A stretch of 64,000 nt of DNA from Antedon mediterranea. Taxonomy: Eukaryota; Echinodermata; Crinoidea; Comatulida; Antedonidae. Shown here in pieces: positions 1,336 through 63,962 of this stretch (the first letter of the stretch is position 1; each line of letters starts with the position of its first letter). Location: assembly GCF_964355755.1 (NCBI RefSeq), contig NC_092675.1:29102912-29166911 (forward strand), given 5' to 3'. Under the pieces are notes generated by a model, which had not been told where the DNA came from, did not search any database, and worked only from the letters and a program-made list of their open reading frames with translations. A program made the translations under genes and the position numbers.

Positions 1336-4300
1336 GTAAGTACTAATTTGCACCTTTAAAATGCATTTTCAGAAATTGTGGAATTCTTTGATGTACTGGA
1401 CCTCATTTAGTTCATTAACTTGTTTTCATCCAACCAATTTTGGAACCTCATTACAAAAAAGTGCGATGTGCCCAAATATGATAGTGATATGACTTCATTG
1501 TGTCCATTATTATGAGCACTGTGTCCATTATTACAGTATTGGCACATCACATTTTTTAGGCTCACTAAAATTGTGTTTACCTAAAATCAATTTTTGGACC
1601 TCATTGCTTAGTTTTGTGAAAAGTTATATAGAAAGGATCTGTTGCTTCCTTTGACACATACTGTATTATTTATTTCTTTATCAAAATAATTGAATAATGA
1701 CTAACTCTTTGAAATTGTAAAAAAAATTATCGTAACTGGGATAATCGGTCGAGCATGATAACTTTGGCCAAGAATGATACCCATTTTGCAGAAGTTACAA
1801 TGACCCCTCTTTTTAGGTGCCACCATCTTACTATTGGTATCGTGGGGCTAAGTAACAAAAGGTTCATTGCCCTAGGATCATATGTGACTATGTCATGTTC
1901 AAATTATGACATGCCAGCAAATTGTCCATTCTTTTGTCATTTGAATTGTACTAAAAACAGATGTTTTAGAACCAACAATTGGAAGGTAGTGGCGTTCAGT
2001 GTGCATGTGCTCCCTTGAGACCTGCAACCCTTGCTGCATTCTGTTTTAACTCTGTTTAATTTCATTGCATTTCTATTTGGCATCAATTTTGTTTCAAAGT
2101 AGGGATTCATGTTTTATGTTATCATGTGTGTTGGCAACAGATTAGGGTTAATAGTTCTTCATATTTTAAACTTTAATGTTGTGTTTTACCAGCTTAAATA
2201 TAAATTTAGATATTTTATTGCAACTCTAAATGATGCAAATCTAGCATTGACCTTGTAACTCCAAAGGTTGCAAACGTACTGCTATTCTTGCATCTCCAAA
2301 AGTTGCAAACTCCCTCCAACAGAATTATAAATCATAAAAATATTGAATTGTTTTTTATTTATTTATAATTATTGTTGTTACTAATCCTGATTTCACATGA
2401 CAAACTTGTTAACATTAAAACTAAATTAAACTAATGTGATTATGCAATACATCAAATTGCGTCGATACATCGTTGCGTTCTAGTGAGAACCACGCTTTAG
2501 ATATTAAAGTATTCTCAAATTTTAAATACACCTTAGACTTTTTAGTAGCTACATCACAGAACACCTAAGACCTAAATTAGCATAATTAAGATCAAATATG
2601 TGTTAGATTGCAACCTTTATTTTCAGGCATCAGTGTAGAAACATGTTAAATCTCAGCTTAAAATGGTGCTGCTAAATAATAATCCATTTACCCTTTGTGT
2701 TAAAAGTCCTATTGTTCATTAAATAACTCTTTTCAATTAAAATGGAGTTTATAAATACCTGATTTTTTCTGATAGAGTAGTCATGTACAATCATTGAAAA
2801 TACAAATGTTACATTACTTGTATAACACACAAACATGCACTTTCTATTAGAAGTGTAGTGTTATGATATGGCAACATATTAGAAGTGTAGGCGGCCTACT
2901 ATAGTATAAATTCTTCTTTGTTCATCACACAAAAAATATACATTTTGTTATTGTTTAGACAGTATAACCCCCCTTTTGAATACCCTTATTCAAGGGACAC
3001 CTTAATACATTTCTGTGGAACGAACGAGGAGCAGTATGTTGTAACACTAGGCCAACCACTTATTTATTTATTTGAACCATATTTAATGAGAGTGATCCAT
3101 CCAGCAATTGCTGATCATTTGGAAAACCCCTATTTAAGTGACACCGCTATTAAGTGACACCGCTATTAAGAAAACACTGTTGCGCCTTGAAGGTGTCCCC
3201 TAAATAGGGCTTGTACTGTAATTTTTTCTGCTGTTTTTATATATTTTTTTAAACAATACATCCATATAATACAATACAGTTATAGCTTCTATATCACTTC
3301 TTTTTCTTATTTAGCACCAATCTGTAACGGAGCCAACGTAACTGGTTTAAGTTTCCCAGGGGACCTTGACAGTCCGAACATGTGTCAGTTCTCTAGTTCA
3401 TTCCCGGGGGTAGCACACCCTATAAACCTCCGGAGAACGCCAATGTCACAGGCCCAACCGCAACCTATGAAACGACAGAAGAGAATCTCCAGTAGCATGG
3501 ATGATGATATTGATAGTGTCGGCGAAGAAAAGATCTACGGTCATTCCCCTGCCTCCGTCAGCAGTCACTCGTCTGGTTGGCATAGCGACATTGATCCCGC
3601 CGGTAAGAAATGAAATGTTTTAATCATTTTCGAGTCATGTGGGATTCTTAAAGTTAAATTCAATTTAAAATTCCTGTCATTTATACTATATTTACTGAAT
3701 TATCGAATCTTTAATATTGTTATCAAACATTAGTCATGTGACCGGCCTCTAAACTTATCAACCAATGAATGCTTAGAATCAAGTAAGATTGTCTGTTGCT
3801 TCGTAATGTTTAGCCAATCAGACGTTTGCTGTATAAGTACTTTAGTACCTGTGGGTATTGAATGGAGACGTTAAACTAAATTAATTATAATCATTTGAAT
3901 TGATTGATTTTGAAGTTAGTTGTATTGTTTTTAAATCGGAGCAGACATGAATGACCGTTGATAGTTGTCCTTAAATAATTCATTCTCACTCTTTATTATA
4001 TTATTGTAAACCAATGCATTGCAATGTAAAATTAACTGTCTATATCTCCTGTATTTCTTCCTAAGAAAACAAAAATAAGTAATACTGTAACATTTGTTCA
4101 GTCAGAATTCATGAACTGTAGGGCTTCCCTTTACATTACATATTTGAACGCAATATATAGTTGATTTAATCATCAATTTGCTATAATGTCATCAGGTTTG
4201 CTATGATGATGCTAAATGATAATAATAAATTATAGAGTACAGAGGCAATTTATTATTTTAAAATGAGTTATTTGGTCTATTTTCTATTTTTAAATAATTA

Positions 4301-7300
4301 GTTTTATTTCAAATATTAATATTTACTGTCTTTTTCTATTAAAGGTCAAAGTCCGGGTGCAGTGCCGTCACCAAATATTATTCACTCCAACAAGGTAAAA
4401 ATTTCAGAGAAGGGCAGTAACTTTACAAATACGATTTCACCAACCAATGGAATGGCAGCGTTACTGAAGGTTCAACCTAAACTGGAGCCAAATCTAGTAG
4501 GATCATTTAGAAGTTGTGCTAATGAAAGTGATCTGAGAGGTGAGTAAAGGTTTAATTGTACATAGTGATTTTGTCTTCACTAGATGAGTAAAGACCTAGT
4601 CAAATTGTACCTAGTGATCTGTCATCACTAGGTAAGTGATTGTCTTCACTAGGTGAGTAAAGGCCTAGTTCAATTATACCTAGTAATCTGTCTTCACTAG
4701 ATGAGTACTAGTCAAATTGTATCTAGTGATCTGTCATCACTAGGTGAGTGATTGTCTTCACTAGGTGAGTAAAGACCTAGTTCAATTATACCTAGTAATC
4801 TGTCTTCACTAGATGAGTACTAGTCAAATTGTACCTAGTGTTCTGTCATCACTAGGTGAGTGATTGTCTTCACTAGGTGAGTAAAGACCTAGTCAAATTG
4901 TACCTAGTGATCTGTCATCACTAGGTAAGTGATTGTCTTCACTAGGTGAGTAAAGGCCTAGTTCAATTATACCTAGTAATCTGTCTTCACTAGATGAGTA
5001 CTAGTCAAATTGTACCTAGTGTTCTGTCATCACTAGGTGAGTAAAGGTTGTTATGCTTTCGAAATGCAAGCAATGTCATATTATATTGTTATGTCGTAAC
5101 AGCAAAGTGTTCAGATTTGCTTAACTAAGCCTTTCGTTTGAAATTGAAGTGTCACCGATTTGCGCGAACATCTGGTATGCAGGAGTAAATTTGATTAGAG
5201 GTCAAAATCGTTGATGCATGACTTTCGTATCGTAAGCGTCATTCACTAATCTTGTACCCCTGTCATAAGAGGTAGTTCAGACCTATGGAGTTGTACTCCG
5301 CATATGATTCAAAAGCATAACTTTTTAGGTCTGAGCAGGCCCTAAGCCTGGTTTCATACTTCACTGGTAAAGGTTGACTTAAAGAGTGCTTTTGTCTATA
5401 AGTATCACAGTCTTCACTGTATGATTGCTTCACTGTGACATTTTTCCTTCATTTAACTCAAGTTCAAAATTGTGAATTAAGATTATTAGAATCATTAAAA
5501 TTATCAGCTAAAAAAATTGTTTTTTACTTTAATAAGTTTTTTTTTTGCTTGAATTTCAGTGGCCACATCACTTTATTCGCTCAACCAGTCTGATTTCTTC
5601 GGCACTCACTCTCGTAGTATACAGGGCAACAATTTAACAGATTTTGTACAGTATGTTTGTGATCAGGAAACAAATAACCAGGTATGTTCAATATCATTGT
5701 TCATCATTCTTCTTATCTCATTTATATCTAATTATACTCCTATGTAGTTTTAAAGAGGCAAAATCACGACTATACTACATTCAACATTGAATACTGTTTT
5801 ATTTTATACTCCGATTGTATTAACAACTGTCTTATTAAAAAGTCTTTTCTCTCAGAATTTAGCATAAATTAGGGGTTGGGGTTATATTTCAGCATAATAT
5901 TAATAATATAATAATAAAGATTTCTAGAGCGCACACCTTGCCACCAAAGATACTCAAGGCGCTTAATTATACTGATTTACAATATGTTGGTTCATATGGA
6001 GTTTCTTTTTGTGACCAAGGAGTTGATCAGCTCAATAGTAAGCGTTCCATTCGGGACGGTAGACAAAAAAAAAAATGGTCATTTAACATAATACAGTCTG
6101 CTATATTAAGTTTTTCATCTACAGTCCCGAAATGAAAGCTTACCAATATGTAAATGGTAATTATTGTGGTTTAAACCTCATATTACAAAGTCAATTTTAA
6201 TTTCAAATTTGTAGAATAATATTAACTTTTACCTATTTTGTTGCCAACAGCATGGTATTACAGGTAATGCAAATACAAAGATAGCCGGATTTATTCCTGC
6301 CACGATGCTACCCCCTCCACCACCGCCACCTATGGCCCGACCAGTTGCTATAGCAACGTCAATTGGTCAAACAGGGGTGTTATCAATGTCAAACCCATCG
6401 ATTGGCAGCACACCAGGTTAGTTAACTATTCTTATATTGTTATTGTGTTTATTGTTTAAAGCACAAACAAACAAGTTAGTGGACAAATCTAATTCCATGA
6501 CCTAGATGATCGTAGAGGCGTAGCAGATGAGATACAGTAGTAGTACTCATCATAATGCAATGCACAGGCATAAGCCATATTTCCCAGTGGTGCCCATTTC
6601 CTCTCTGGTCTGGCAGGGTATTTTGCTGGATGGCCGTCGTTGGTTCTCCTGAACCGACGCCCTTGTAGTTAGTTTTTTGTTTTTAGTACCAACTGGGTGT
6701 CCAAGTTTTAGAGGAGGTTTAGTCACCGGTGTGTGGCAGTAGCTGTGACAAATAATTGAATTTAATTAATTGTAAAAATTATTTTTTAAATCATTAAATT
6801 GAGGTAGTTACTATTGATATTATTATTGAATTATTTTTACCATTTTAATAGGAACAACAAGTGTAGTGAGTGCTTGTCCAACGACACCACCGGGCAGAAG
6901 TGTCATGCACAGTCCGTTCACCGTCTTACACAGGCCAGAGAACACCATGTTATACACACAACAACAGGTACATATGCTTATTGAAATACTTTGGTTCGAG
7001 TGAGTTAGCGGTTAAGACAGTAGAACCGTAATTACATTCAGCAAGGGTTCAAGCCTCACCCGCTCAATGGTTCTGGTGGTAGAACAAGTCTTCTCGGATA
7101 AGGACTATAAACCGTTGGTCCAGTGTACACATCTGGCTCATGTGCACTTAAAAGTACCTAGTACATCTTTCGAGATGAGTAGGGGGTTACACCGGTGTGT
7201 CTTTGACTGAAAAGGTTACCCAGTATAAATAAATAACAAATTTAGAATTCACAAATGTTAAGCTATGCTTGGAGAGCCTTGCAAAATAATAATATTCTAC

Positions 7301-17632: not shown

Positions 17633-20600
17633 TCAAACTTGTACTCCATTCACGTCATCGTAAGTAACTTTACCATCATAGCTATAGTCAATCATGGCCT
17701 GGGGGTCAAGGTCAGGGTCACCTCCCATTGTTGTTCCATTTCGTTGATGTACTTCAAAAGCCTCTCTTCGGTGGTCAACAAGTGCTGGACCCCATGTATC
17801 AGTTGAACTGGCCATTACTTTCAATCGCTATAATAAAATAAAATAAATATTATTTATACTTTCTGGGTTTCTTCTTCACTCATAAATAAAACTGAACTGA
17901 AGTATATGTGTGATACATGTTAAGCTTTGCATCCACTATCAAACTATAGTTTGACAAAAAAAGTGTGATGTACCGAAATATGGCAGTGATTTGCCCAAAT
18001 ATGGTAGTGATATGACATCATTAAGTCCATATATGGGCACACATCACATTTTTTTGTCACATAAAGTTTGATAGTGTAGACAAAGCTTTCGTCATCCAAC
18101 CATTACACGATAAAGCACCAACAAAAATGTTTTGTATTACTCATAGTAACTTACGTCAAGAGCGGAACCTTTCTGCTTAATGAAATCATAGATGGCAAGT
18201 CCAGGAATGGGCACAACAGCAGTAGCGTACAGGAACCAACCAATCACATGAGCCCAGTCGGGAAAATCAGAATCTCCGACAGTAGGAGCTGTCCAGTTAG
18301 CCCAGTCAAATAAAACGACAGCCTGGAAAAGACAAAATTAAATATTTTGTTATTGAATAATTTTAGTAATATCTTTTGTATTGATAGATACACATTATGT
18401 AATCATCATACCACCATTGCCAACTATTGATTCCTAATTAGCAAAGTGTAATAGATAATTTGTTTGTTTTTCACCTAATTGTTTAATTCTATTGATCAAA
18501 TTCTAGGTGACCTTCTTCTTGTATTTATATTCAATTTATGTACAATATTTGTGTTTTATTTAAATGTGTGTTGAGTTAAATTCACAAATAAATTTCCTCT
18601 TACTGATAATATTACAGGTGTAATAGCAAGCCAGTTGAGAGGCCACCAGTAGAAGAGAGGTGAATCCACAATGCGGTCACCGACCATCGTACGGATATCA
18701 TTAACGAATCTCTTGTAACCATACAACCACGCAATTCCAATGCATTCTCCGAGACCGTATAACAGGATTGGGTTTGCTACGTATGAATCGATTAATGCAA
18801 CCCAGTAATTACCAGCCTGAAATTACAAAATGATATGTAATTATTATTAATTATGCAAATATGTAAATTATTATTAATTATGCAAATTATTCAATACAGA
18901 AATCAACTTGATATAAATTTAATTGTAAATAACAAACTTTAATATCTTAATGTTTTTGATGAAGATAAAATAAAAAAATAGAAAATAAATTTAAATAAAT
19001 TAGGCCTATTAAATACAGAAACATAATTGTCGTGTTTAAAGAAAAATGATTTATACTTCAGAGTTTTAGAGCTATAGTAAGATATAAATGACAACTTATG
19101 TTTTTTTTAAATATATTTCTTTGATATTAATACTTATTGCATGAATCATTCATACTTTTATTTTATCATATTTAATGTCTAGTGTATATACCGTAATCTA
19201 CTTATCCATACCTGAGATACACACAGTAAGCCAATGAAAAAGCTAAACGAACAAAAAGCCCCAAGTACGTATAATTTCTTCTTCCTCAACTGCTTTGGAT
19301 ATTCGTCGATAACCGCTGTGATTATTGTTTCAACAATTACAAACTAGAACAAATTGAAAAATTAGAACACATAAGCTATGGTGAGTGGAAACACACGCTT
19401 AGTCAATTTAGTGTGAAGTGAGCACTTTAAGTACATGGAAATAGACACTTACATTGAGAATATGGCATGAATAACAAAAGATAGATATAGTTATAATAGC
19501 ATTAGGAGGTTTAAATTAAAAAAAGTATTTGCTATTTGAAGAAGGATTAATTGTTAATCTCCAGCATATTGTCTGTTTTACATCCTGTATTAAAGGCTAG
19601 AAAATTGTGAATAAGCAAAATACCAACCTGGCTATCAAGTCCAAGAGTTAGCAACATGAAGAAAAACAGGAATGCCCATACTGGAGCGCCAGGCAGACTA
19701 GCAACAGCTGAGGGATACGCGATGAACGCTAAACCAAAAGCTGAAAGAACAATCGTCAAAATATTTATGATTTAGTGAATTTCTAACTCCATTTTTCCCT
19801 TTAATCTGTCTTTTATAAAATATAAATCAGTATTTATTCTGGGTTGATTTGGATTAAAAAAGATTTTGATATGTAATTATATTACTTTTTAATATGTGTA
19901 TCCATCACACATTGGTTCATATAACAACCCTTTCTACCTTCTAATTATTGCAATACTTCTTTGTTACTTACATTGTGTGACCACGTCCTCAATTGGCTTA
20001 TCAAGTTGTTGTGCCATGTACCCAATGATAGAGAAGATCACAAAACCAGCTAATAAACTTGTTAAACAGTTCAAAATTGGGATGATCATAGCATCTCTGT
20101 TGGAAAAAAAAAATTTAAATTATAAAGTTTTATTTCCACAATGTAAATACAAAAGTTGTTATAATTAGAAATTGTACTTGTACTGGAAAAAACTAATAAG
20201 TTTTAAAGAGCTTTAAGGTTTCTTAGTTATATTACTGAAATTTATAATATTATACCTGAAGCAGTTGTTTCGGAATTTGTTGTATGAAGCTAAAGTGATG
20301 AGTCCGCCCCATGAAGCACTGAGGGAGTAGAAGATCTGAACGGCGGCGTCTTTCCAAACTTTAGGGTCCTTCAATCGGTGCCATTGTGGTGTGATGAAGT
20401 ACTTGATACCTTCTTGGTGTCCATCAAGAGTTAGGCCCTTGATCAGCAGAATGATAAGGACAACGTATGGGAAAGTGGCTGTGAAGTAGACTACCTTCCC
20501 TGATGATTTGATTCCCTTGGCTAAGCAAACAAAAACAATACCCCAGGCTAGCAGGAGACACAGACCTAGTTCCCACACAACATAGCCGGTGTCATTGATG

Positions 20601-23600
20601 CTATCAGATCTCTGTAAAGCCTCATATCTGGGGAGAAGAGCATAACAATTCATCAAACCACTATTCACTTTGAATTAAAATACCTAGAAATAACCCCATA
20701 ATCTTTTAGAATGCTTCATGCAGTGTCATTGACGTCACTACCCAAACTGATTATTATCGATTTTTGTTATTTTAATAAGTACCCAGGGTTAATTTTCTGT
20801 CAGTCATGATTCATTACCCCTTTTAATGTTCTACTGAAATTGAAAACAAGCGTCACATTCGACGAGATGTTTTTAAAAACAATCTTTTATTTTGTAGGAT
20901 TGAGAATTAGAAATGGCTAGTTGGAAACAGATCTAAAAATGTAAATACTGTATCAATGTAAAAACTGTATTAATGTGAATTCAAATAAACGAACAAGTAG
21001 TCTGACTTACAAATAAAATTCTTCACTTGCGCCAACACGTTCTTCTCTGAAAGGATCAACGTACAAAGACTTATCCCCGCCCGCACTAATGTTGTACATA
21101 GCCAACTCAGCTTCCGAGTAGTCACTCATGTAAGCACAGGTATTGTTAAATGTGACGAATGTACCGTTGCCGTGTACGCAGTCTTGCACCATCTCTGCAC
21201 AGTTGAAGACTGAGTTCCATGCGTGATCGCAGCCAACCCACGGGAGACTTTTGGTGAGAGATGCGAACATGTAACGTATAGTATATGTGATAATTACGTT
21301 GTAGTAAATACCGACGTAGAATGAAACAGCCATCATTCCATAACCAATGCCTATAAAAAATATGAATACAATATGCTTAGATGGCCATCATTCTCTTCAT
21401 GTAAATGTAAATTGGTTTTGGTTAATTTTATAAATAATAATGACCAATCAAAAGAATGAATATTTCTCCACATAAACTATTATTTTGCATCATGATTGTA
21501 AATATAATAAACTGTACAATGTAATCAAACATTTGTTATCACACAAAAAAAATATGATATTATTACTTACAAAATAATCAGCTTGTTTTAAATTTTAATA
21601 GATATTATCTGCATTTATTTACCCAAATTTAGGGTACATTACAAGCAAGTTATGGGAGATTTACCCACCAAGACTGATAAACACAAAGATTGGATTCAGA
21701 TTATTATCATAAGATATGTGAGACAGTAGCAATATCTGTTGCAATGCCAAGTTAGATGCTTAACTACAATTTTAACATATCGTATCACGAACCTTTACAT
21801 GCGATACAATTTATTTAATCTATGATAAAAAGCTGCATTGCATTTAACCTGCCTGAAGTGTATCTATTTAGCTAGTTTCATGCACCATGACTGGCGTCAA
21901 AATGTTCTAGCGTAATTGCACGGAAGTAGGGCTTTGAAAATTCTACAATTATATTAAGTGAGGATTCGTGACACGCGGGAGTTTCATGCGTCAAATGTAA
22001 CACAATCAAGGACAATACATATAAAATATAATATTAAATTATGGATAAATAATATTTGGATAATCGTTATAGATACGGCACAGTTTTGGATTTGTTCCAA
22101 GCGAAATCAATAAGTCTCATGGAAATGTGACGCTTTCTTTTCAAATAATCTTTGATGAGGATCTTTATATATTTTGGTCGTCGTCCAAGAAATTAAGTTT
22201 TTTTCCCTCTCCTACTGTGCAGGATGCACTAACAAGGAAGTTCTCAAAATGCAGACACGGGGAAAGTACCCTAAAAATTCATAACAACTATCTTTTTGAT
22301 AAAAACTATGAATGAAACATACAGTAGAACAATGCCCTTTCAAAAGTAAATAGTAATACTGCTAAAATGATTCATTTTGTTTCATTTTCTATAAAACCAA
22401 AACAAACCACTTGCAACATACATCAATGACTTTAAAACCACCAATTACAGACCTCCCTATAATAGCAATTGACTCAACAAAACAGTAGGGAAATTTGGCT
22501 TTAGTTAGGGATAGAATGATCTATCTAGTTCTATTTGTCCCATGACCTAGAGGATCAGAAGGTGCGTAGCAGATGAGATACTGCACCGAAGTCCTTCCAT
22601 AGGGAATTAGTAGTTGCACTCATCATGATACGATACACAGGCACATTAAGCCATATCTTCCAGTGGTGCCTAAACCCCTTTCAATGTGCCTAGCAGGACC
22701 CTCTAGCAAGAGTTTATGCACACCGCGGCACAACACCATACAAAATTCTGGTATAAACTCCAGAATTTGTCTAGGAAATTTGTTAGTTTGTGTTTCAAAT
22801 TATAAGGAAATATTTAACATTATTTCCGCAATAGATCTCAAGATTGTAATGTAATTCAAACTACAATAGTAGGCCTATATTCTTTCTTAGTAATTATTTC
22901 ATTTTCTATTTCCTGAAATTAAAACGTACCTCGTAAAATTGGAACTGCACGCCATGAGGTTATAGGTCCGAGACTGCAGTATTGTCCAAAAACCAACTCC
23001 AAAAAAAATAGGGGAATACCAGCAAAAAGCAACATAATTGTGTATGGTATCAAAAATGCACCTGTAAGATAAAAAAGAAGAAAATATATATTTTTTGAAA
23101 GTCCACGTTTTATTTATCATTATTTTCATACTGCATCGAGTATGCAAGAAATCTTAAGCACTGTTTTGCAAATTAATACACATTATTGGGAAGCTATTTA
23201 ATTATTGAGTTACTTAACAAATCAAAAATAAAACAGAAGCACTTTTAATATGAGTCCACTCTGGTCACATGACTGCTCACGCGTGACTCTGCGGTAAAGA
23301 GAAGCGGTAATGACGTACATTACCAACGTCAAATAACTCAGAATATCAATAATTTTCGATCGCAAAAAATTTACTTCTCAAATTAATCTAGAAAAAACAT
23401 TAGGTATTTTCAGAGATAATCTTAAATGTGATTATACCATTTCCTTTGTTTTTTAATTGCAAAATTCTAATATCAATATGTTTCTACTACGGTAATGCTA
23501 AACTTATAAATTTCATGATTTCTTTATATACACCACAATCAATCACAATCACAATCAGAATCACAATCAATCAGAATCACAATCACAATCACAATCACAA

Positions 23601-35300: not shown

Positions 35301-38300
35301 ATTACCGTAGGTCAGGGGGATATTTTTGGTATTTCAATTATCTGTTACTATCTTGTCAGGAAACCAATGATAATCATCTTGTTAATGTTATTAACATGCA
35401 TAGTAATTCTAAGATTTAAATGTTTAAGTAAACAAATTGTACTAAACCATCTTTTTTTTAAATCACAGTTTTCTTTACTAAGTGTCTTTTGGACGAAAAG
35501 AAATGTTTTTGAATTGAATTTTTGTTTTGTTATTTGTTTTTTTTTTCCCACAAAAACTACAGTAGTAAAAGATTAAAATAAACTAGATTTAATTCGTCAC
35601 TATGACGAATTATAGGTTATATGCATTGATTTAAATAAAGATAATTGATTTTTAAAAGATATATTGATTGATTGATTTTCTCAGAATCTTTAATTATTTA
35701 TAATATATGATAGGACCTTGCTAACGCGAACACCTTAGCCGGTATCACAATCCGATCAAAGATCCATATGCGTATAATGTCATAAACCACATTTGTTGTT
35801 ACATAAAAATAAAGACATAAGTTACTTTTTATCTAGATTTCATTATAAATCATGTGTATAATCTATACACTAAAAAATAAATTTGAACAAACAATACTGA
35901 TAATAAAAAAAAAATCTTATTTCTTTTCCCAAGGTGAGACTCGATCTCGGTACCTTAAATGCCATAGACACGAGCACAGACCATCGAGCCATACACAACT
36001 GACTAAAAGTTGTAGAAAAATTCCTCCGTGTATTTACTATGCAGTAACCACTTTGGTGCAAATAGATTATTACATACCGCAATGAATTATAATTTTTTAC
36101 TATGATGACATCTTTAAAAATGTAAAAAAATGATGCACTGTCAAACTATATACTTTTAACTTTAATATATGAACTTCTTAAGAAAGAAAGTTTAAGTTAT
36201 TTCGGCCTAAGAAAATGTCATAATTTTTTTTGATTGTCGAAATTATTTTTTTTCAATTTAATATGCAATCAATGAAGACTTAATCCACTTTTGTTCTCTT
36301 AATTGGATAATAAATTATACATATGATACATACACTTCAAGAAAAGGAAATAAAAAATAGGTGTTCCCCAGCATTCTGACGATATATATTAATTTTAAAA
36401 TTAGCCTGTCACTTTTGACGTGCTCGTATAACGCAATTTTGAGTTGAAAAGTGAATCAAATATGATGATATTATTAAAGAAAGACTGTAAAACAGAAATC
36501 GGGCAAAAAGAGTGCGCATTAACGTTTAACGCACAGTGCGCGTGCAAAAATCTGCGCACTCATGGCAATTTTTTACACGGCTAAAATTGCCTGAAACGTA
36601 CTCTAATTTCATCGAAAATAAATGTTGACAATTTTGAACATTTTAAGCGCGCGTACGCAAGCGTTATATGCGCTACGTGCGTAATTGTATTGCCATATGA
36701 TGAAATATGACCTGACATTTATGAGTACCAAATTTTGTTTAATTGTGATTCATGCTTGTGAAGATATGATTACAAACGTGATTTCGTTAAATCGCGCGTA
36801 ATGATTGATTGCGCACCGTGAAAACATAACCACATCGATTCCTGGCCAAAAGGAATATACTCTAAAAAATTGACTTAGCTAGATGAAACTGATGCCAAGA
36901 TAATTCACGGACAAAATAGTGCTAAGGAAAGAATAAATAAATAAATAAATAAAGATCCTGACAGAATCAAGAGGTTATATGCATTAATGCATATAACCTA
37001 CCGTAATAATATATTTATGTTTTTTGTATTATAATTGCTTTATTTTCTGTTATTTTAAAATATTATAATGGCTTTTTAAAATGTAATTAAATATGACTTC
37101 ATTATATCCAGGTTGTGAGACTTATGGCATCGTAATTAAACCAGATATTTACTTTAATTAAAGCCATTGAACTCTATTATTATTGTTTTTAAGTAACAGA
37201 TACCATATGGTAAGAGGAAAAACAACAATTTCAAATAAGAGTATATTTTTCTTAGAATTTTGTAATTAAAATTTTATTTGTAATAATTTAATACAATTCT
37301 GTAATTGTGTATTGGATAAGATTGTCAAATATAAAATGTCCCATATCCCTGTTGAATCCATTTTGGGGACACATTAAATTCTCAGTTCATGATACTGATA
37401 GTTGTTTTCAGACACCAAACTCTCGCAATAATCGTTATTTTCTTTCCTTCCTACCATAAACCATCAACTTCATATTTTTTTTATTTTAAATGTAAACAAT
37501 ATTTATACCATACAAAAAATTTATATATTGTTGCAGTATTGTTTAATCTTTATCTTAATATTTTTCTGGGAATAATTAATAAAGACAATGACATTTCTAT
37601 TTTTGGCTAGTCACTCCTAAATCTGGTGGTACAAATTGATAAATAAACATGTTTACACACAGAGCTTTATAAATAATAATATTATGGAACATATTTTATA
37701 CAATGCAAATTACTGAAAGCACAAAAGTGTTTTCTCTGGGTATATAGCTGGATTGATTTAGATGAAATAAATAAGTAAAAATGTTAAAAACCAATATTTT
37801 GTGTTTATAATTTACAGTTGAAAAGGCAGGCGGAAAATGTCTTCCGTGTATCGTGGACATACGAGAGGAGATTCAAATTCAAAATGCAGTTGATGAAACG
37901 GTGAAGATGTTCGGTGGAATTGATATCGTAGTGAACAATGCAAGCGCCATTAGCCTTACAGGGACGCAGGAAACATCGATGAAAAAATATGATTTAATGC
38001 ATAATGTGAATACGAGAGGAACTTACCTAACGTAAGCAGCTGGGTTTTGCAATCATGTCTTAATATTTTTCAATATACATCCATCATTTACAATAAAATA
38101 TATATTAGATACATTACCTACTTATGTTGTATGTACAGTATGTACAAAAGGAAATCATTAAAAATGTCAGTAACAAATGTTATACTATGGTCAATATATA
38201 TATAATATTTAATAATGTCTCTACAGTAATTGTCCATTTTGTCTCTACAGTAATTGTCCATTTTGTCTCTACAGTAATTGTCCATTTTGTCTCTACAGTA

Positions 38301-41300
38301 ATTGTCCATTTTGTCTCTACAGTAATTGTCCATTTTGTCTCTACAGTAATTGTCCATTTTGTCTCTACAGTAATTGTCCATTTTGTCTCTACAGTAATTG
38401 TCCATTTTGTCTCTACAGTAATTTGTCCATTTTGTCTCTACAGTAATTGTCCATTTTGTCTCTACAGTAATTGTCCATTTTGTCTCTACAGTAATTGTCC
38501 ATTTTGTCTCTACAGTAATTGTCCATTTTGTCTCTACAGTAATTGTCCATTTTGTCTCTACAGTAATTGTCCATTTTGTCTCTACAGTAATTGTCCATTT
38601 TGTCTCTACAGTAATTGTCCATTTTGTCTCTACAGTAATTGTCCATTTTGTCTCTACAGTAATTGTCCATTTTGTCTCTACAGTAATTTGTCCATTTTGT
38701 CTCTACAGTAATTGTCCATTTTGTCTCTACAGTAATTGTCCATTTTGTCTCTACAGTAATTGTCCATTTTGTCTCTACAGTAATTGTCCATTTTGTCTCT
38801 ACAGTAATTGTCCATTTTGTCTCTACAGTAATTGTCCATTTTGTCTCTACAGTAATTGTCCATTTTGTCTCTACAGTAATTGTCCATTTTGTCTCTACAG
38901 TAATTGTCCATTTTTTTTTTTGCTTTTCTTTATGTTATATTTTACTTTAACTATGTTGTTTTACTTTTGTACGTCTGATTTTGTTTATATGATCCACCAG
39001 TGATATCAGTACTACAATACTGAAGGTGTCTTCACAATAAAGACAGAAATAAATAAATAATACTGTAGCCATTCACAGGGTGATCGCTAATGTAATAATA
39101 ATTTAGTCTGTTAAAAATAGATATTATTTAACAGGTACTTCATAATTTCATTTTAACTGTCAAAAAAGTGGAGAAAAGGCCTCTCATTTTACTCTTACAG
39201 GTTGTTAACATTATTCATACCTTCTTTTTTTCTAGGTCAAAACTTTGTTTACCATATTTAAAAAACAGCAAGAATCCCCACATTCTGAACATTAGTCCAC
39301 CTTTGAATATGAATCGAAAATGGTTCAAGAATCATGTTGGTAAGATAATTTAACTAGATAAATAAATACCAATAAAGATGTAAATTCCATTACCATTAAA
39401 CATCACCCTTTATCTCTTTGTCTGTACAACTATAAACAAACCCTCTACATTATTTAAAGATTAAGCCATCAAATTGTGTTGTATGTTGGAAAAGAATGCA
39501 GACAAGTTATGATATTGATAGATCAATAACCCTACGTTTGTTGTTTACGATGATGACGTAAATGGTAAACATATGTTTATGTTAATTTTCAGCATACACA
39601 ATGGCCAAATATGGTATGTCAATGTGCGTATTAGGAATGGCTGATGAATTACAAGATGACAACATTGCAGTGAATGCTTTGTGGCCAAGAACAGGTATTG
39701 CAAAAATTGCACTCACAAAATGATTTATAACTAGAAGGCGTGTTTGGCTGTAAGAACTGATCATCCTTTTCAGAAAACATGAAATAAAACTCAATTTTAC
39801 CAGGCACGGATTTAGGCAGGGTCTAAATAGGTCATGTCTTGATAATTTTTCTGCAACTTAACGGATTGTTTTTATAATTTATTAAAAATTCCCCCCCCCC
39901 CCCCCCAACCGATCTATAATGGTGGATCCGCCCATGTTTACAGTACATGGTCATATCTATAAGTAATAATATAATAATTTATAAGTAACTATTTCAGTAT
40001 GAATTATTTTTATTGGGACTGACAAAAAATATGAATAAGAAAATAAAAGCTATACAGCAAATATGTCTAATGCAATGCAATTGGTATTGCATTTTAATGG
40101 AAAGAGAAAAATGAATCAACATCCCTAAAATAAACAATAACAGTCAAGATGAGAGAAAAGAAAAAGACACCCACTCTTGATATATATATATGCCTTACTT
40201 TTCGATTAATGTTTCCATGGTAACATTGTATTTTATTTTAGCCATATGGACTGCTGCTATGGACATGTTGGGAGGTGGAACCGGTGAGACACGGAAGCAG
40301 TGTCGTAATGTTGATATAATGGCGGATGCCGCATACACAATCCTGACGAAGGACAGTAAATCATACACTGGCAACTTTGCCATTGATGATGAGGTGTTGC
40401 AATCTGTTGGTGTAACAGACATCGATAAATATGCTTGTGAACCAGGTGGGTCATTTAAATATATAGTAGGGGACACCTTCATGACCAAAGTGTCACTTTA
40501 AAGGGTCTTTCACACATGTTCTGGCACGGTTCCGGTCCGGCACCGGAAAATCCAATCAAATGTTTCGTTTTCACGTGCATATCCATTGCCGCATAGCTGC
40601 GTGGAGCATCGTGAAAACAAAACATTTAATTCGCCAGACCGGAACCGTGCCGGAACAGGTGTGATAGACTCTTAATAGGTGTTGGTCATACTGGTAAAAC
40701 ATATATTGTCTCTTATTTGTTTCATGAAAGAATAAAAGTATCCGCTTAAGGGTTAAGTATCCGCTTAAGGGTGTCCCAAAAGACAGGTTCTACTGTATTT
40801 GTTATTACATTATATAAATAAATAATGTATTATTTTTATATAAATACATTTGTATACCTGGAATGCTACGCTACACAATTGCACAAACAGTATGTGTTGT
40901 ATAATAGATGGAGGGATAGAGGGAGCTTTCAATTCGTGCGCATGTGGAGATGTTGGAACACGTGTCCTCGCTCCTCACCTCGACACATGTTTGATGGTTT
41001 GTAAGTTCAGGCAACGATTGACGACACTGACCTCTGACCTGACCTAGGTTGGTTGTCAGCGCAATTTGAAAGCTTCCTCTACTACCTCATAGCTAACCAA
41101 ATGATTGGTGCTATTAACTTAGGAAAATTGACACGTGTCATTTTGGTTCTGTTAACTGTCATATTGACTTTTGTCAGAATTAACTTAAACACACACATAT
41201 ATATATTTTTACATCTGTTAGATCTTTACATCAATATAACTATAATTTACATTTCAGTCAAAACACAATATAATACGCCATAGCATCAACATGTACAGTA

Positions 41301-54971: not shown

Positions 54972-57300
54972 GTTAGTGGTGAATATACTTGTATTCTTAG
55001 AAAACGTAATGTATACATTATTTGTTTAAAGATAATTGTTCGAGCAGATACCTCTGCTCGGATACATTATTTGATATTCTGCCAATGTTAAACATTATTT
55101 AATTCTTGTTTAATAATTGGTGCATTATGGTTTTGTCGCAATATGTGTTTATAATAATTCAAATGTATTTATTCATGATGCAAAGAAATATCATTCAGAT
55201 ACTAAATGTGCTTCACATTTTCAGAGAAATACAAATGTGAATATTAATTTCTAGCGTAATTATGCCAAATTACGTCAGCAAACTTTTTTCAATAAATAAG
55301 ACAATGATCAGTATGTCCGCTGCCCACAGCTTACACTTGCCTTACCCCCTTACGTCATCCCCTTACGTCACCGTATTCATAGATAGGCCTATATGGCTTT
55401 ACCAACGCATAGAGAGATGGTCGTGGCAACAATGAAATGATTTTTAAATAATTACACTTGTACTTATATAACATTAACAATGTGTGTAATCAAAATTATA
55501 TTAGGCATAATTTTAAGAAATAAAAATAATAATGAAAAGTTGGTAATGTCACATAAACGTTATTTTTTTTACACAAAAAAATTGGAACGAAAAAAAAATT
55601 CAACTCGAAACCCTGGAGGTCATGCGTTTTTTGTTCTATTTAACTATCTATTATGCCTTGTTTGTAAGCAAAATAAAGTATTTGTGCTCATTTTTTCCGA
55701 AAACAAAATGGACTATTTGATTTTGTGTGTGTGTGGGGGGTGGGGGGGGGGGGGGTGTTGGTTGGGGGTTAGGTGTGTGGTCGAGAAACACCTTGTCGCC
55801 ACTGTCATTGATTTAGTCTACAATACAATGCTTTCTTTGGTTGACAAATTGTGATCTAATTGTGTCTCATTCTATGTCTCACTGGATCGGACATCGCCTG
55901 ATTGTAATAAATAATTGATTATTGTTCCTGGGCCTCCCCCACTCTACCCAAAACCTTCCGCAACTATTTGTAATATTTTGTTTATCGACCATTACGACAA
56001 AATAGCAGGCCTATCACGAGTAGGCCTACAATTAGTACATTACAGTGGGAAAGCCACTTCGCGTTTTGACCGTTAAATCGTGTAAAATCGACTTACTTCC
56101 GCATTGACGATTTTGAAGCGCCACCTATCGTTGAAAACTGAAACCACGATTTTTCGTCGCCTAGCAAATAAGTGCTGTTTTATTTTAAGCTCTCATGAAT
56201 ATTTAAGAACCGCCCAACATTACCTATTATGGTAAAAGCATTTCCTAATAAGTATAATTGAATAACCAATCGGTTTTCTTCAAAGAAACCGAAGCTAATA
56301 CAATACATTCGGCGACTGAAGTCGGGACTCGTGAAATTTATAAATGTGGTACGATTTGACTACTGTTTTGTTGTCCATTTTCTGAATAGTCGGAGGTGCA
56401 TCCCAACAAATTAAAAAAATTGTAATCAATTGTTTTATCAAGAATAATATTAGTTTAATCGAGTATGATATATTTCTATCCTGTTCAAAATGTGTTGGTG
56501 TATTCTCAGGCCTCGAAAGGTAGGTACATTTTCTAGCTGTGAGCGTGGTTTCGGCAAACGCGAGACACGTGTGTCAGTATAGGCGATAGCGAGGCGTGTG
56601 CAGGGAACATTTTCGCCAGTGTAGCGTAGCAAAAAGCTATACAAAACAACCTTATTGCTACACATTTTGAAAATTGTGTAGCAAAAAATACAATACAAAA
56701 CTATGTTTCTCGACTTAAAAATCAGTTTGATTAGCAATATTGCTAAACAAAATTTTTAAATGAAAATTTTCCCTGGTGTGTTGGTACTGTGTTGATGCTG
56801 ATCCGATAGTCGTTAAGTTGTACTGATTACGAGTATCATTGGTCCTGGCCGGCCTAGCCTGGTGATCTGATCCCCCCCAAAAAATACTTTTTTTCAATCA
56901 GTATTAATATTATTATTTTATTTTTCATTTATTATTTGATTTATTAGGCTCAATAGATGCCTAGCTAGGCTACTAGTAGGCCTAGATTATATAAATAATA
57001 ATAGTAAATACTGTAATTTAATTAATAAAATACAGCTTCCATTTGCCTTACTTACTTTTATGTCATCATATAATATTATAATTATATATACAACCAGACA
57101 TTAACATTTTTTTAAAATAATATTTATTATTTTTTCTGACACTTTCAGGAATCGTTGATGATGCAGAGTTCTTTGTCTTTGTGACTTCAAACTGAGAGTG
57201 AAGTGGATAAAAAGATGACACCGGTACCTACCGACATTTTCATACCCAAACTATAATATAATTTAATTATTTAAAACAAAATGTTGAATTACAAATATAT
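54972..57300. other. Intergenic or intronic DNA with G-rich tract
   Basis: Holds TGTGTGTG followed by a long G-run at about 55724-55768, and nothing clearly coding. If the 54870 exon is real, this is its intron. Confidence 0.45.
55724..55768 (+). repeat. GT repeat and long G-run, G-quadruplex-prone
   Basis: TGTGTGTGTGGGGGGTGGGG continues into about 13 consecutive G, then further GGG and GGGGG runs, enough G-tracts for an intramolecular quadruplex. A similar G-run lies at 12714-12740. Confidence 0.85.
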
Positions 57301-58173
57301 AGGGTGTGTAGAAAGCAACGACCTCGAATTGGACGACCCCAACGACCCGGGCGACCTAGAATTGGACGACCCATAACACGAAACCGACGACCCTAGCCTA
57401 GCTTAGCCTACTAGGCCTAGGCTAAGTGTGGTATAACATCCCGAAGCCGAACATAGCCAAAGATCTTTAAACCATACCTTATATAATACTCGCAAGCAAG
57501 CAATTGATTGAAAAAATACAGAAATATCGCCATTTCATACTGAATGTGTCGACACGAACAAACGAACAGATATGGAACGCCAAGAGTGCATCATTAAAAC
57601 TGCATTCGACATATTAAAAATAAATTAAAAAGAAATAAATATTATACATTACATGGTTAAACCATGGACGTATAATTACATCTGGTCTTCTTATAACGAA
57701 CACTATAGGCCTACCAAGCAGCGTGTTGCGAACATGTGCATGGGGGGAGGGCCATAAGAAAAGCTTTACATTTCACACATGCATTGTATACGGCGGTCAA
57801 ACCTTCTCACCCGCCGCTGAAAAAGGGGCCGTTTTGACCTGGTATTTCGTGTGCTAATCGGATCGAATGCAGTTTTAATGATGCACTCTTGGCGTTCCAT
57901 ATCTGTTCGTTTGTTCGTGTCGACACATTCAGTATGAAATGGCGATATTTCTGTATTTTTTCAATCAATTGCTTGCTTGCGAGTATAATTTATATAAGGT
58001 ATGGTTTAAAGATCTTTGGCTATGTTCGGCTTCGGGATGTTATACCACACTTAGGCCTAGGCTAGGCTAGGCTAGGGTCGTCGGTTTCGTGTTATGGGTC
58101 GTCCAATTCTAGGTCGTCCAATTCGAGGTCGTTGGGGTCGTCCAATTCGAGGTCGTCGCTTTCTACACACCCC
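57301..58173. mobile_element. Large fold-back element with about 310-bp inverted arms
   Basis: The left arm 57301-57610 is repeated, reversed, at 57862-58173 with few differences. Termini are GGGTGTGTAGAAAGC and GCTTTCTACACACCC (right arm GTCGCTTTC). AAATATAT occurs directly outside both ends, at 57293-57300 and 58174-58181, and looks like an 8-bp target duplication, as in hAT-like elements. Arms carry repeated GGTCGTCCAATTCGA motifs near the tips. The 251-bp centre has no ORF. Confidence 0.93.
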
Positions 58174-60061
58174 AAATATATATATATGTTGCAGAGGATT
58201 TAGATGAATTACAATACAAATATTTATGTTGAATGCAAACCTACTACACTATACTCTGTAAATTATGTTATTGTCATGTGGTAGACCTTAAAAATTGAAT
58301 ATTTATTGTATGTTAGCCCTATTTTATATTTTATTAATACTGTATTAGTTTAACTACAGTATTAATTTATATTATACAGTACTAGGCCCCTAGGCCGGCC
58401 CAATTTTGTACATGTTTTTACCCCCAAAAAATGAATAAATAATTTGTTATTCAATCTAATTGCTTGTTTGTTCATCAATAACAAAACAATTGTAAGCAAG
58501 TATATAACAGTTCTTGTTAGCCGCTTATTTCAGGTCATATTATTAATATTAGCTAGGCCCGACGCGCCCGATCACAACGTCACTAAGTGACTTTCCGCCC
58601 CTGGAACAATCGCTCGCTAATAGGGCTAGGCCTCGGACTCGTATAAAAGCTATTATAATAGTTATGATAAATATTCCTCAACTAAAATGTTTACTGTGAT
58701 AAATAAACAAGTAATAATATACGTTGTATTGGAATGTATTTATTTATATGAATTCTTATACGCGGACAATTATAAACATCGCGTATATCGTTCGCTATAA
58801 ATAAATTCATAAACACGATGACGATGTGTTTACAAAATGGCGGTTTCGCTAGTTTTCGATGGAACAAATAGTGGTACCTTTAGTTTGAATAGTCGGAGCT
58901 GCATCCCAACCACCGAATTTTGTATCTTAATATCGTATTCTGTAGATTATTAATTTTTCTAACAGGGATTTTAAATTCAGGACTGTTCAATTTTTCTAAA
59001 TATTTTATTTTAATGATTTTCTAGGGTACAATTTCGGAAAAAAGACATTGGTTGATTTTGCCGTTAAATTACAGATTATCGTTTTGTTCAAATACATTTA
59101 ATTTTACATGACAATATATTAAAACCATTTATGAATTTATTTCACTAACAACATTTTTCCGATAATCAACTAAATTTACAAATATTGTGTTTTTCCAACA
59201 CCCTAAAATTTAGCCATTTTGAACTAAATTAGAAAAGTAGGGCGCCCTCTCCGAGTCGAAATTTGACACGATTTGTCGACTGGCTGTCCCACTGATTAGC
59301 CTTTGGTTTTTAAACTCGCTGCATGTTGTCCTACATTTTGAAACGAAAAGATTAATAATGATTTATGAATCGTCAAGGCAATCATCGGCGTGAAATATGT
59401 ATAGACACAATGTACCATCCATTGTTATGTAACACACGTAAAAAACGTACTGCGCATGTCCATCTACAGTGACTTGGATTTCATTCTATACTGTAGATAA
59501 TGTATTATTATTTTTGAACACGGTCCCCTAATCCAACCTACTTCTATCCCATAATAATAGCTTTAATGTTGAACCTTTCTGTAGTACAACGACGTTAAAC
59601 GCAACTTGAGCGATCATCCAAGTTCAATGCCCTCGAGTTATCTCAGAATAATTCGCTATTAATAAACTCGTCAGAGCGTACGAGACGGTTGCAACCAATC
59701 ACAATCGTTGATATATACAAATTATCAGCCAGTGTGGATTTTTTTATGTCATAACTCGTAGCCACGGTTATGCAATGTAACGCTAATAGTAAAGAGGTAT
59801 CGCAGGATGTGTGTTTACATCAGCCAATCAGCTAGCGTATTGAGTATAACGGGGAGTGAGACGACCTGGTCTGGCCCACTTTCCTCGGCGGGTTAAGGAC
59901 GATAAGAAAATAGTCCTAACCGCAAGCTATACTCAGCATTCGAGCGTAATTTTAAGCCAACCGTCATTTTGTAAAGGTTGTGATTCTATTGAGCATTTTA
60001 ATAATTTTTCTCAGTTAAAAACATAGAAAACGTAGCTAACAACATCAAGTGTGCATCAGTC
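58174..60061. other. Upstream region of the 60062 candidate gene
   Basis: AT-rich until about 59600, then richer in CpG. A CCAAT box lies at 59824-59828 within CAGCCAATCAGCTAGCG, and another CCAAT at about 59696. The last 240 bp could be promoter and 5'UTR of the exon at 60062. Confidence 0.35.
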
Positions 60062-63523: not shown

Positions 63524-63962
63524 ACCTCATTGTTATGTAATCTACCCATTAATCATTTGTTAATGTTGTTGGCGCTCCATACCTTTTACAATCGTCTTGG
63601 CCTCATTGTTATGTAATGTACCCATTAATCATTTGTTAATGTTGGCGCTTCATACCTATTTACAATCGTCTTGGCCTCATTGTTATGTAATGTACCCATT
63701 AATCATTTGTTAATGTTGTTGGCGCTCCATACCTTTTACAATCGTCTTGGCCTCATTGTTATGTAATGTACCCATTAATCATTTGTTAATGTTGTTGGCG
63801 CTCCATACCTTTTACAATCGTCTTGGCCTCATTGTTATGTAATGTACCCATTAATCATTTGTTAATGTTGGCGCTTCATACCTATTTACAATCGTCTTGG
63901 CCTCATTGTTATGTAATGTACCCATTAATACTTCATTAATGTTAGCGCTTCATAACTGAAGG
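63524..63962. repeat. About 75-bp tandem repeat at the right edge
   Basis: Six units with CCTCATTGTTATGTAATGTA, CCCATTAATCATTTGTTAAT and CTTTTACAATCGTCTTGG. Two variants occur: A has GTTGTTGGCGCTCCATACC and B has GTTGGCGCTTCATACCTA. The order is A, B, A, A, B, then a diverged last unit. Confidence 0.93.

Follow-up and report, generated by a model that had tools for sequence, protein, structure and literature searches.

Described MULE/Foldback families carry long terminal inverted repeats (TIRs), subterminal tandem repeats, and target-site duplications (TSDs) of 8–10 bp, mostly 9 bp or a mixture of 8–10 bp. In Mutator/Foldback elements (Phantom-type; Tm1 of Meloidogyne, Muta1 of Aedes, and Tetris and FB of Drosophila) the interiors are variable, nested insertions occur, and non-autonomous copies far outnumber coding ones. 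The barley MULE Hvu_Abermu has long TIRs and GGG...CCC termini, with a 9-bp TSD in 267 of 278 copies and a transposase. The TU fold-back elements of sea urchins have long inverted repeats whose outer domain consists of tandem repeats of approximately 15 bp, and they generate an 8-bp TSD. AcademH elements of animals and fungi are reported to have TSDs of 9 or 10 bp (PMC10045372); they encode a helicase-transposase.

The element described here is located in a window of 64,000 nucleotides (the whole stretch of DNA analysed) on C6, a contig of chromosome size in a genome of 354 Mb. Its family shares all of the above traits of Tm1, Muta1, Tetris, and FB, including a TSD within the 8–10 bp range; unlike these elements, whose TSDs are mostly 8–9 bp, it is rigidly confined to 10 bp, and no MULE transposase was linked to it. 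It resembles Hvu_Abermu in its long TIRs and in its termini (a comparison of the first three bases only). By description it is also like the TU elements in its long inverted repeats and approximately 15-bp tandem units, with a TSD of 10 rather than 8 bp, and like AcademH in the length of the TSD, although no helicase-transposase gene of the kind described for AcademH was linked to it in the copies read. The family is new; its kind is already known, and as mobile DNA in an animal genome it is ordinary.

Structure and boundaries of the window element

The window element is one copy of a dispersed multi-copy family, and we classify it with high confidence as a non-autonomous fold-back (long-TIR) DNA transposon. 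Its organization (Table 1) is that of the fold-back structural class: long TIRs make up most of the element (619 of 871 bp) and contain short subterminal tandem repeats of approximately 15 bp, the number of which differs between the two arms. The arms are nearly identical when one is reverse-complemented, as an earlier note on this DNA had observed, with 93% identity when gaps are included and 1.4% divergence when substitutions only are counted (as in all arm divergences below); much of the difference consists of small insertions and deletions in the repeat units.

Table 1. Coordinates of the window element, its parts, and its flanks
Feature	Position in window	Strand	Remarks
Complete element	57302..58172		Short size class, non-autonomous fold-back, 871 bp; termini GGGTGTGTAGAAAGC / GCTTTCTACACACCC
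Left TIR arm	57302..57610	+	309 bp; begins GGGTGTGTAGAAAGC
Right TIR arm	57863..58172	-	310 bp; terminates in GCTTTCTACACACCC
Left-arm subterminal tandem units	57319..57372	+	Short (~15 bp, CGAATTGGACGACCT type)
Right-arm subterminal tandem array	58097..58157	-	15-bp units, GGTCGTCCAATTCGA, ~4.5 units
Non-palindromic centre	57611..57862	+	252 bp, without a long reading frame; repeated in the genome together with the arms
TGCATGGGG	57737..57745	+	Position approximate (few bases); duplicated around the nested 815-bp element in the 1.75-kb class; unoccupied here
Left TSD	57292..57301		CAAATATATA, 10 bp
Right TSD	58173..58182		CAAATATATA, 10 bp
Left flank	57152..57301		Part of another dispersed repeat, which hosts the insertion
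Right flank	58183..58332		Same dispersed repeat, continuing

The earlier note placed the element at 57301–58173, with 310-bp arms and an apparent 8-bp duplication of the target. The ends are as sharp as it claimed and the flanking direct repeat is real, but the repeat is 10 bp long, and because only its inner eight bases had been seen, the ends were set one base too far out on each side. Since the TSD includes both the A at 57301 and the C at 58173, the element runs from 57302 to 58172 and its arms measure 309 and 310 bp.

As with any such inverted repeat, the strand is predicted to form a long hairpin (-623.6 kcal/mol, compared with a mean of -224 for shuffled sequences). The earlier note expected such a fold of any transcript through the element and supposed that it could feed small-RNA pathways; the prediction follows from the inverted repeat and speaks neither for nor against transcription or small RNAs. 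A search of phage DNA yielded no match.

Dispersed copies, target-site duplications, and empty sites

A genome search with one arm, the check proposed in the earlier note, does recover other copies: the left arm matches at least 40 places on many contigs, nearly all at 90–95% identity, and the centre of the element is found at about 40 places with up to 97–99% identity. Exact matches to the 15-base terminus number 214 (106 forward and 108 reverse), and a reversed-pattern control occurs 0 times in the same genome. Split by its preceding base, the pattern gives 210 positions, which resolve into 72 paired complete copies and 66 unpaired ends. The copies comprise a small group of 0.19–0.99 kb (with a peak near 0.83–0.89 kb) and a middle group of 1.5–1.96 kb (peak 1.73–1.79 kb). 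In addition there are eleven larger spans; the majority of these were read and contain further nested inserts.

An exact 10-bp repeat flanks 44 of the 57 complete copies read, with 44 different sequences, and two further copies have a 10-bp repeat with one mismatch; the longest exact flanking repeat is 8, 9, or 11 bp in none of the 57. When flanks were mispaired between copies in approximately 20,000 trials, the longest repeat never exceeded 6 bp. The 44 duplications have a mean GC content of 0.35 (0.33 for the window) and are all different, so AT-richness does not account for them. A TSD of fixed length combined with dispersal, here 72 complete pairs, is a feature of the fold-back class.

Empty target sites, also a feature of that class, are indicated by joined-flank matches for two copies. 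For the window copy, the two flanks joined with one TSD (a 300-bp query) match end to end in at least 40 places at 95–98% identity, and on this basis the element is inserted into another dispersed repeat of which uninterrupted versions exist. These matches are approximately 292–302 bp long and most therefore differ from the query by a few bases; we suspect that an AT microsatellite at the junction lies behind the differences in length. A second copy (L050) is found inside a reading frame resembling a LINE ORF, and its joined flanks with one TSD match approximately 15 uninterrupted places at 95–100%.

Low divergence between copies (0–1.7% for nearest-copy arms across the family) supports, at the level of sequence comparison, recent activity of the family, and such signs together with exact boundaries make its members suitable insertion markers. 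In the long class, same-side arms differ by 1.0% (median) between copies, compared with 3.4% for the two arms within one copy, so the two arms are passed on together, with no homogenisation between them inside a copy. The identity of the arms is therefore a property of the family and by itself gives no insertion date. The earlier note had taken it to imply recent insertion or gene conversion, which does not follow: the window arms differ from each other by 1.4%, and the nearest arms of other copies are at least as similar to them (0–0.7%).

These observations bear on three other accounts of the locus. That the arms of each copy are kept alike by internal gene conversion or snap-back repair would fit their 93% overall similarity, with much of the difference in small insertions and deletions in repeat units, but is very unlikely: the right arm of the window element has no substitution relative to one arm of another copy (L002, chromosome C1) and 1.4% relative to its own partner, the long class shows the excess of within-copy divergence given above, and the pattern that conversion would leave, with each arm most similar to its own partner, was not seen. 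Slightly more improbable again is an element of hAT, P, or Merlin type with an 8-bp duplication. The inner eight bases (AAATATAT) are indeed identical on both sides, but in each of the 44 copies whose flanking repeat is exact it is 10 bp long, and no copy stops at 8. Formation of the inverted repeat in place, through inverted duplication of local sequence or copy-back at replication, with the flanking 10 bp an AT-rich coincidence, can be dismissed with near certainty. The immediate flank is AT-rich and includes an AT microsatellite, but more than 70 complete copies with the same ends are dispersed at unrelated sites, most with a 10-bp repeat of their own, and uninterrupted target sites exist. 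The same facts dispose of the outcome under which the earlier note would have given up its reading (no other copies, no empty site, and flanks explained by local AT-rich sequence), and its identification of a fold-back transposon holds.

Nested elements within family copies

The 1.75-kb class consists of the short form plus an 815-bp nested element with imperfect inverted ends (GGAT...). The nested element is bounded on both sides by TGCATGGGG (a 9-bp TSD). Short-form copies, that of the window among them, have a single TGCATGGGG and represent the empty site for the nested element; the short form is the older design. The opposite order, in which the short form would have arisen from the 1.75-kb form by deletion, was rejected for this reason. 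Among its best 40 matches the nested piece is 97–100% identical over 650 bp, which indicates that the composite was recently amplified. The class provides a clean example of nested passenger amplification, in which a transposon inserted into the short form and then spread together with it.

Apart from one pair separated by 15.8 kb, all end pairs more than 2 kb apart were read. They prove to be family copies interrupted by nested foreign inserts, with no coding member among them; the inserts include other fold-backs, LINE-like frames, and an Academ-like remnant. One 7.9-kb pair (L046) has neither a matching TSD nor a long frame. A different long-TIR element (L042:689–4797; ends GGATCAACTGCC, arms of approximately 827 bp at 95%) is nested in one family copy; approximately 70–85 bp of the host element is absent at this site, and no TSD was seen there. 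Another copy contains a further fold-back (L041:629–3052; ends GGTGTCAGATGAAATCGGTCGCG, arms of approximately 500 bp). A short-class copy is interrupted by a 1058-aa open frame similar to a LINE reverse transcriptase (L052:1522–4695), an insertion that is probably recent because the frame is long and intact. An additional nested insert (L043:1846–5322) has termini (TAGGCTATGGGG...) that differ from the family ends and frame fragments containing ADTRMF...DTDDVF...FTGCDS, which we take to resemble the XPG-like nuclease known from other elements of the Academ type; its frames have no match in Pfam.

Source of the transposase and other features of the window

No transposase-sized frame attributable to the element is present in the copies read, and the family is therefore non-autonomous. 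A transposase-bearing relative with the same ends, as envisaged in the earlier note, was not found among the copies and MULE loci read. The genome has 36 MULE-domain hits, none of which is inside a mapped element (a comparison that covers the mapped copies and a minor part of the DNA behind the 66 unpaired ends); the closest approach of a hit to any mapped end is 10 kb, with a complete copy in between, and none of eight MULE loci read has a pair of family termini.

One of these eight, a MULE-domain locus of 59 bits, lies between long TIRs of its own, formed by inverted arrays of short tandem repeats of GGACAACTACCCCC type (L059:2033–2538 and 6383–6671), and is a candidate coding fold-back MULE with ends differing from those of the family. 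MULE-domain frames of 651 aa, equal in score, occur at five places in the genome and suggest a coding family that was active recently; the two of these loci that were read (L053 and L060) showed no long TIRs around them.

The family is most likely mobilised in trans by cut and paste, through a transposase with a 10-bp stagger. Such an enzyme, encoded elsewhere, would recognise the GGGTGTGTAGAAAGC ends and the subterminal short repeats (by analogy with described fold-backs, the 15-bp units are putative binding sites), excise the element, and insert it at cuts staggered by 10 bp; repair of the resulting gaps would then produce the 10-bp duplication.

As the superfamily of this transposase, Mutator/Foldback ranks first and is the probable source, although with considerable room for doubt. 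A 10-bp TSD is within the range of the MULE superfamily (8–10 bp, usually 9), but its rigidity is unusual, and the assignment is weakened because described MULEs mostly have 9 bp or a mixture of 8–10 bp; the identification as a transposon is unaffected by this. A smaller, still appreciable share of our expectation goes to another or an unrecognised superfamily. Ranked second is an AcademH-type transposase, of which the element would be a non-autonomous derivative, and this we regard as unlikely: the reported TSDs of 9 or 10 bp accommodate the family and are nearer to its rigid 10 bp than are those of typical MULEs, and the presumed XPG-nuclease likeness of the L043 fragments suggests that Academ-like elements may be present in the genome, but no AcademH helicase-transposase was linked to the family ends in the copies read, and the L043 element has the different termini and the frames unmatched in Pfam described above. 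It is more doubtful still that the rigid 10-bp TSD, the GGGTGTGTAGAAAGC termini, and the absence of a linked known transposase denote an undescribed transposase lineage, or a known one not known for fold-backs. A literature search on IS4EU found nothing. The source transposase of the fold-back family, if found, would show which superfamily combines fold-back ends with TSDs of strictly 10 bp.

Elsewhere in the window are exons of ordinary animal genes, one of NF-I (3191–3610) and one of a sodium:neurotransmitter symporter (20216–20674; SLC6, Pfam PF00209). A minisatellite with a 24-bp unit (38216–38914; 29 copies at 99%) is open in several frames, and a 76-bp tandem repeat (63525–63943; 5.6 copies) has a higher-order period of 226 bp at 97%.
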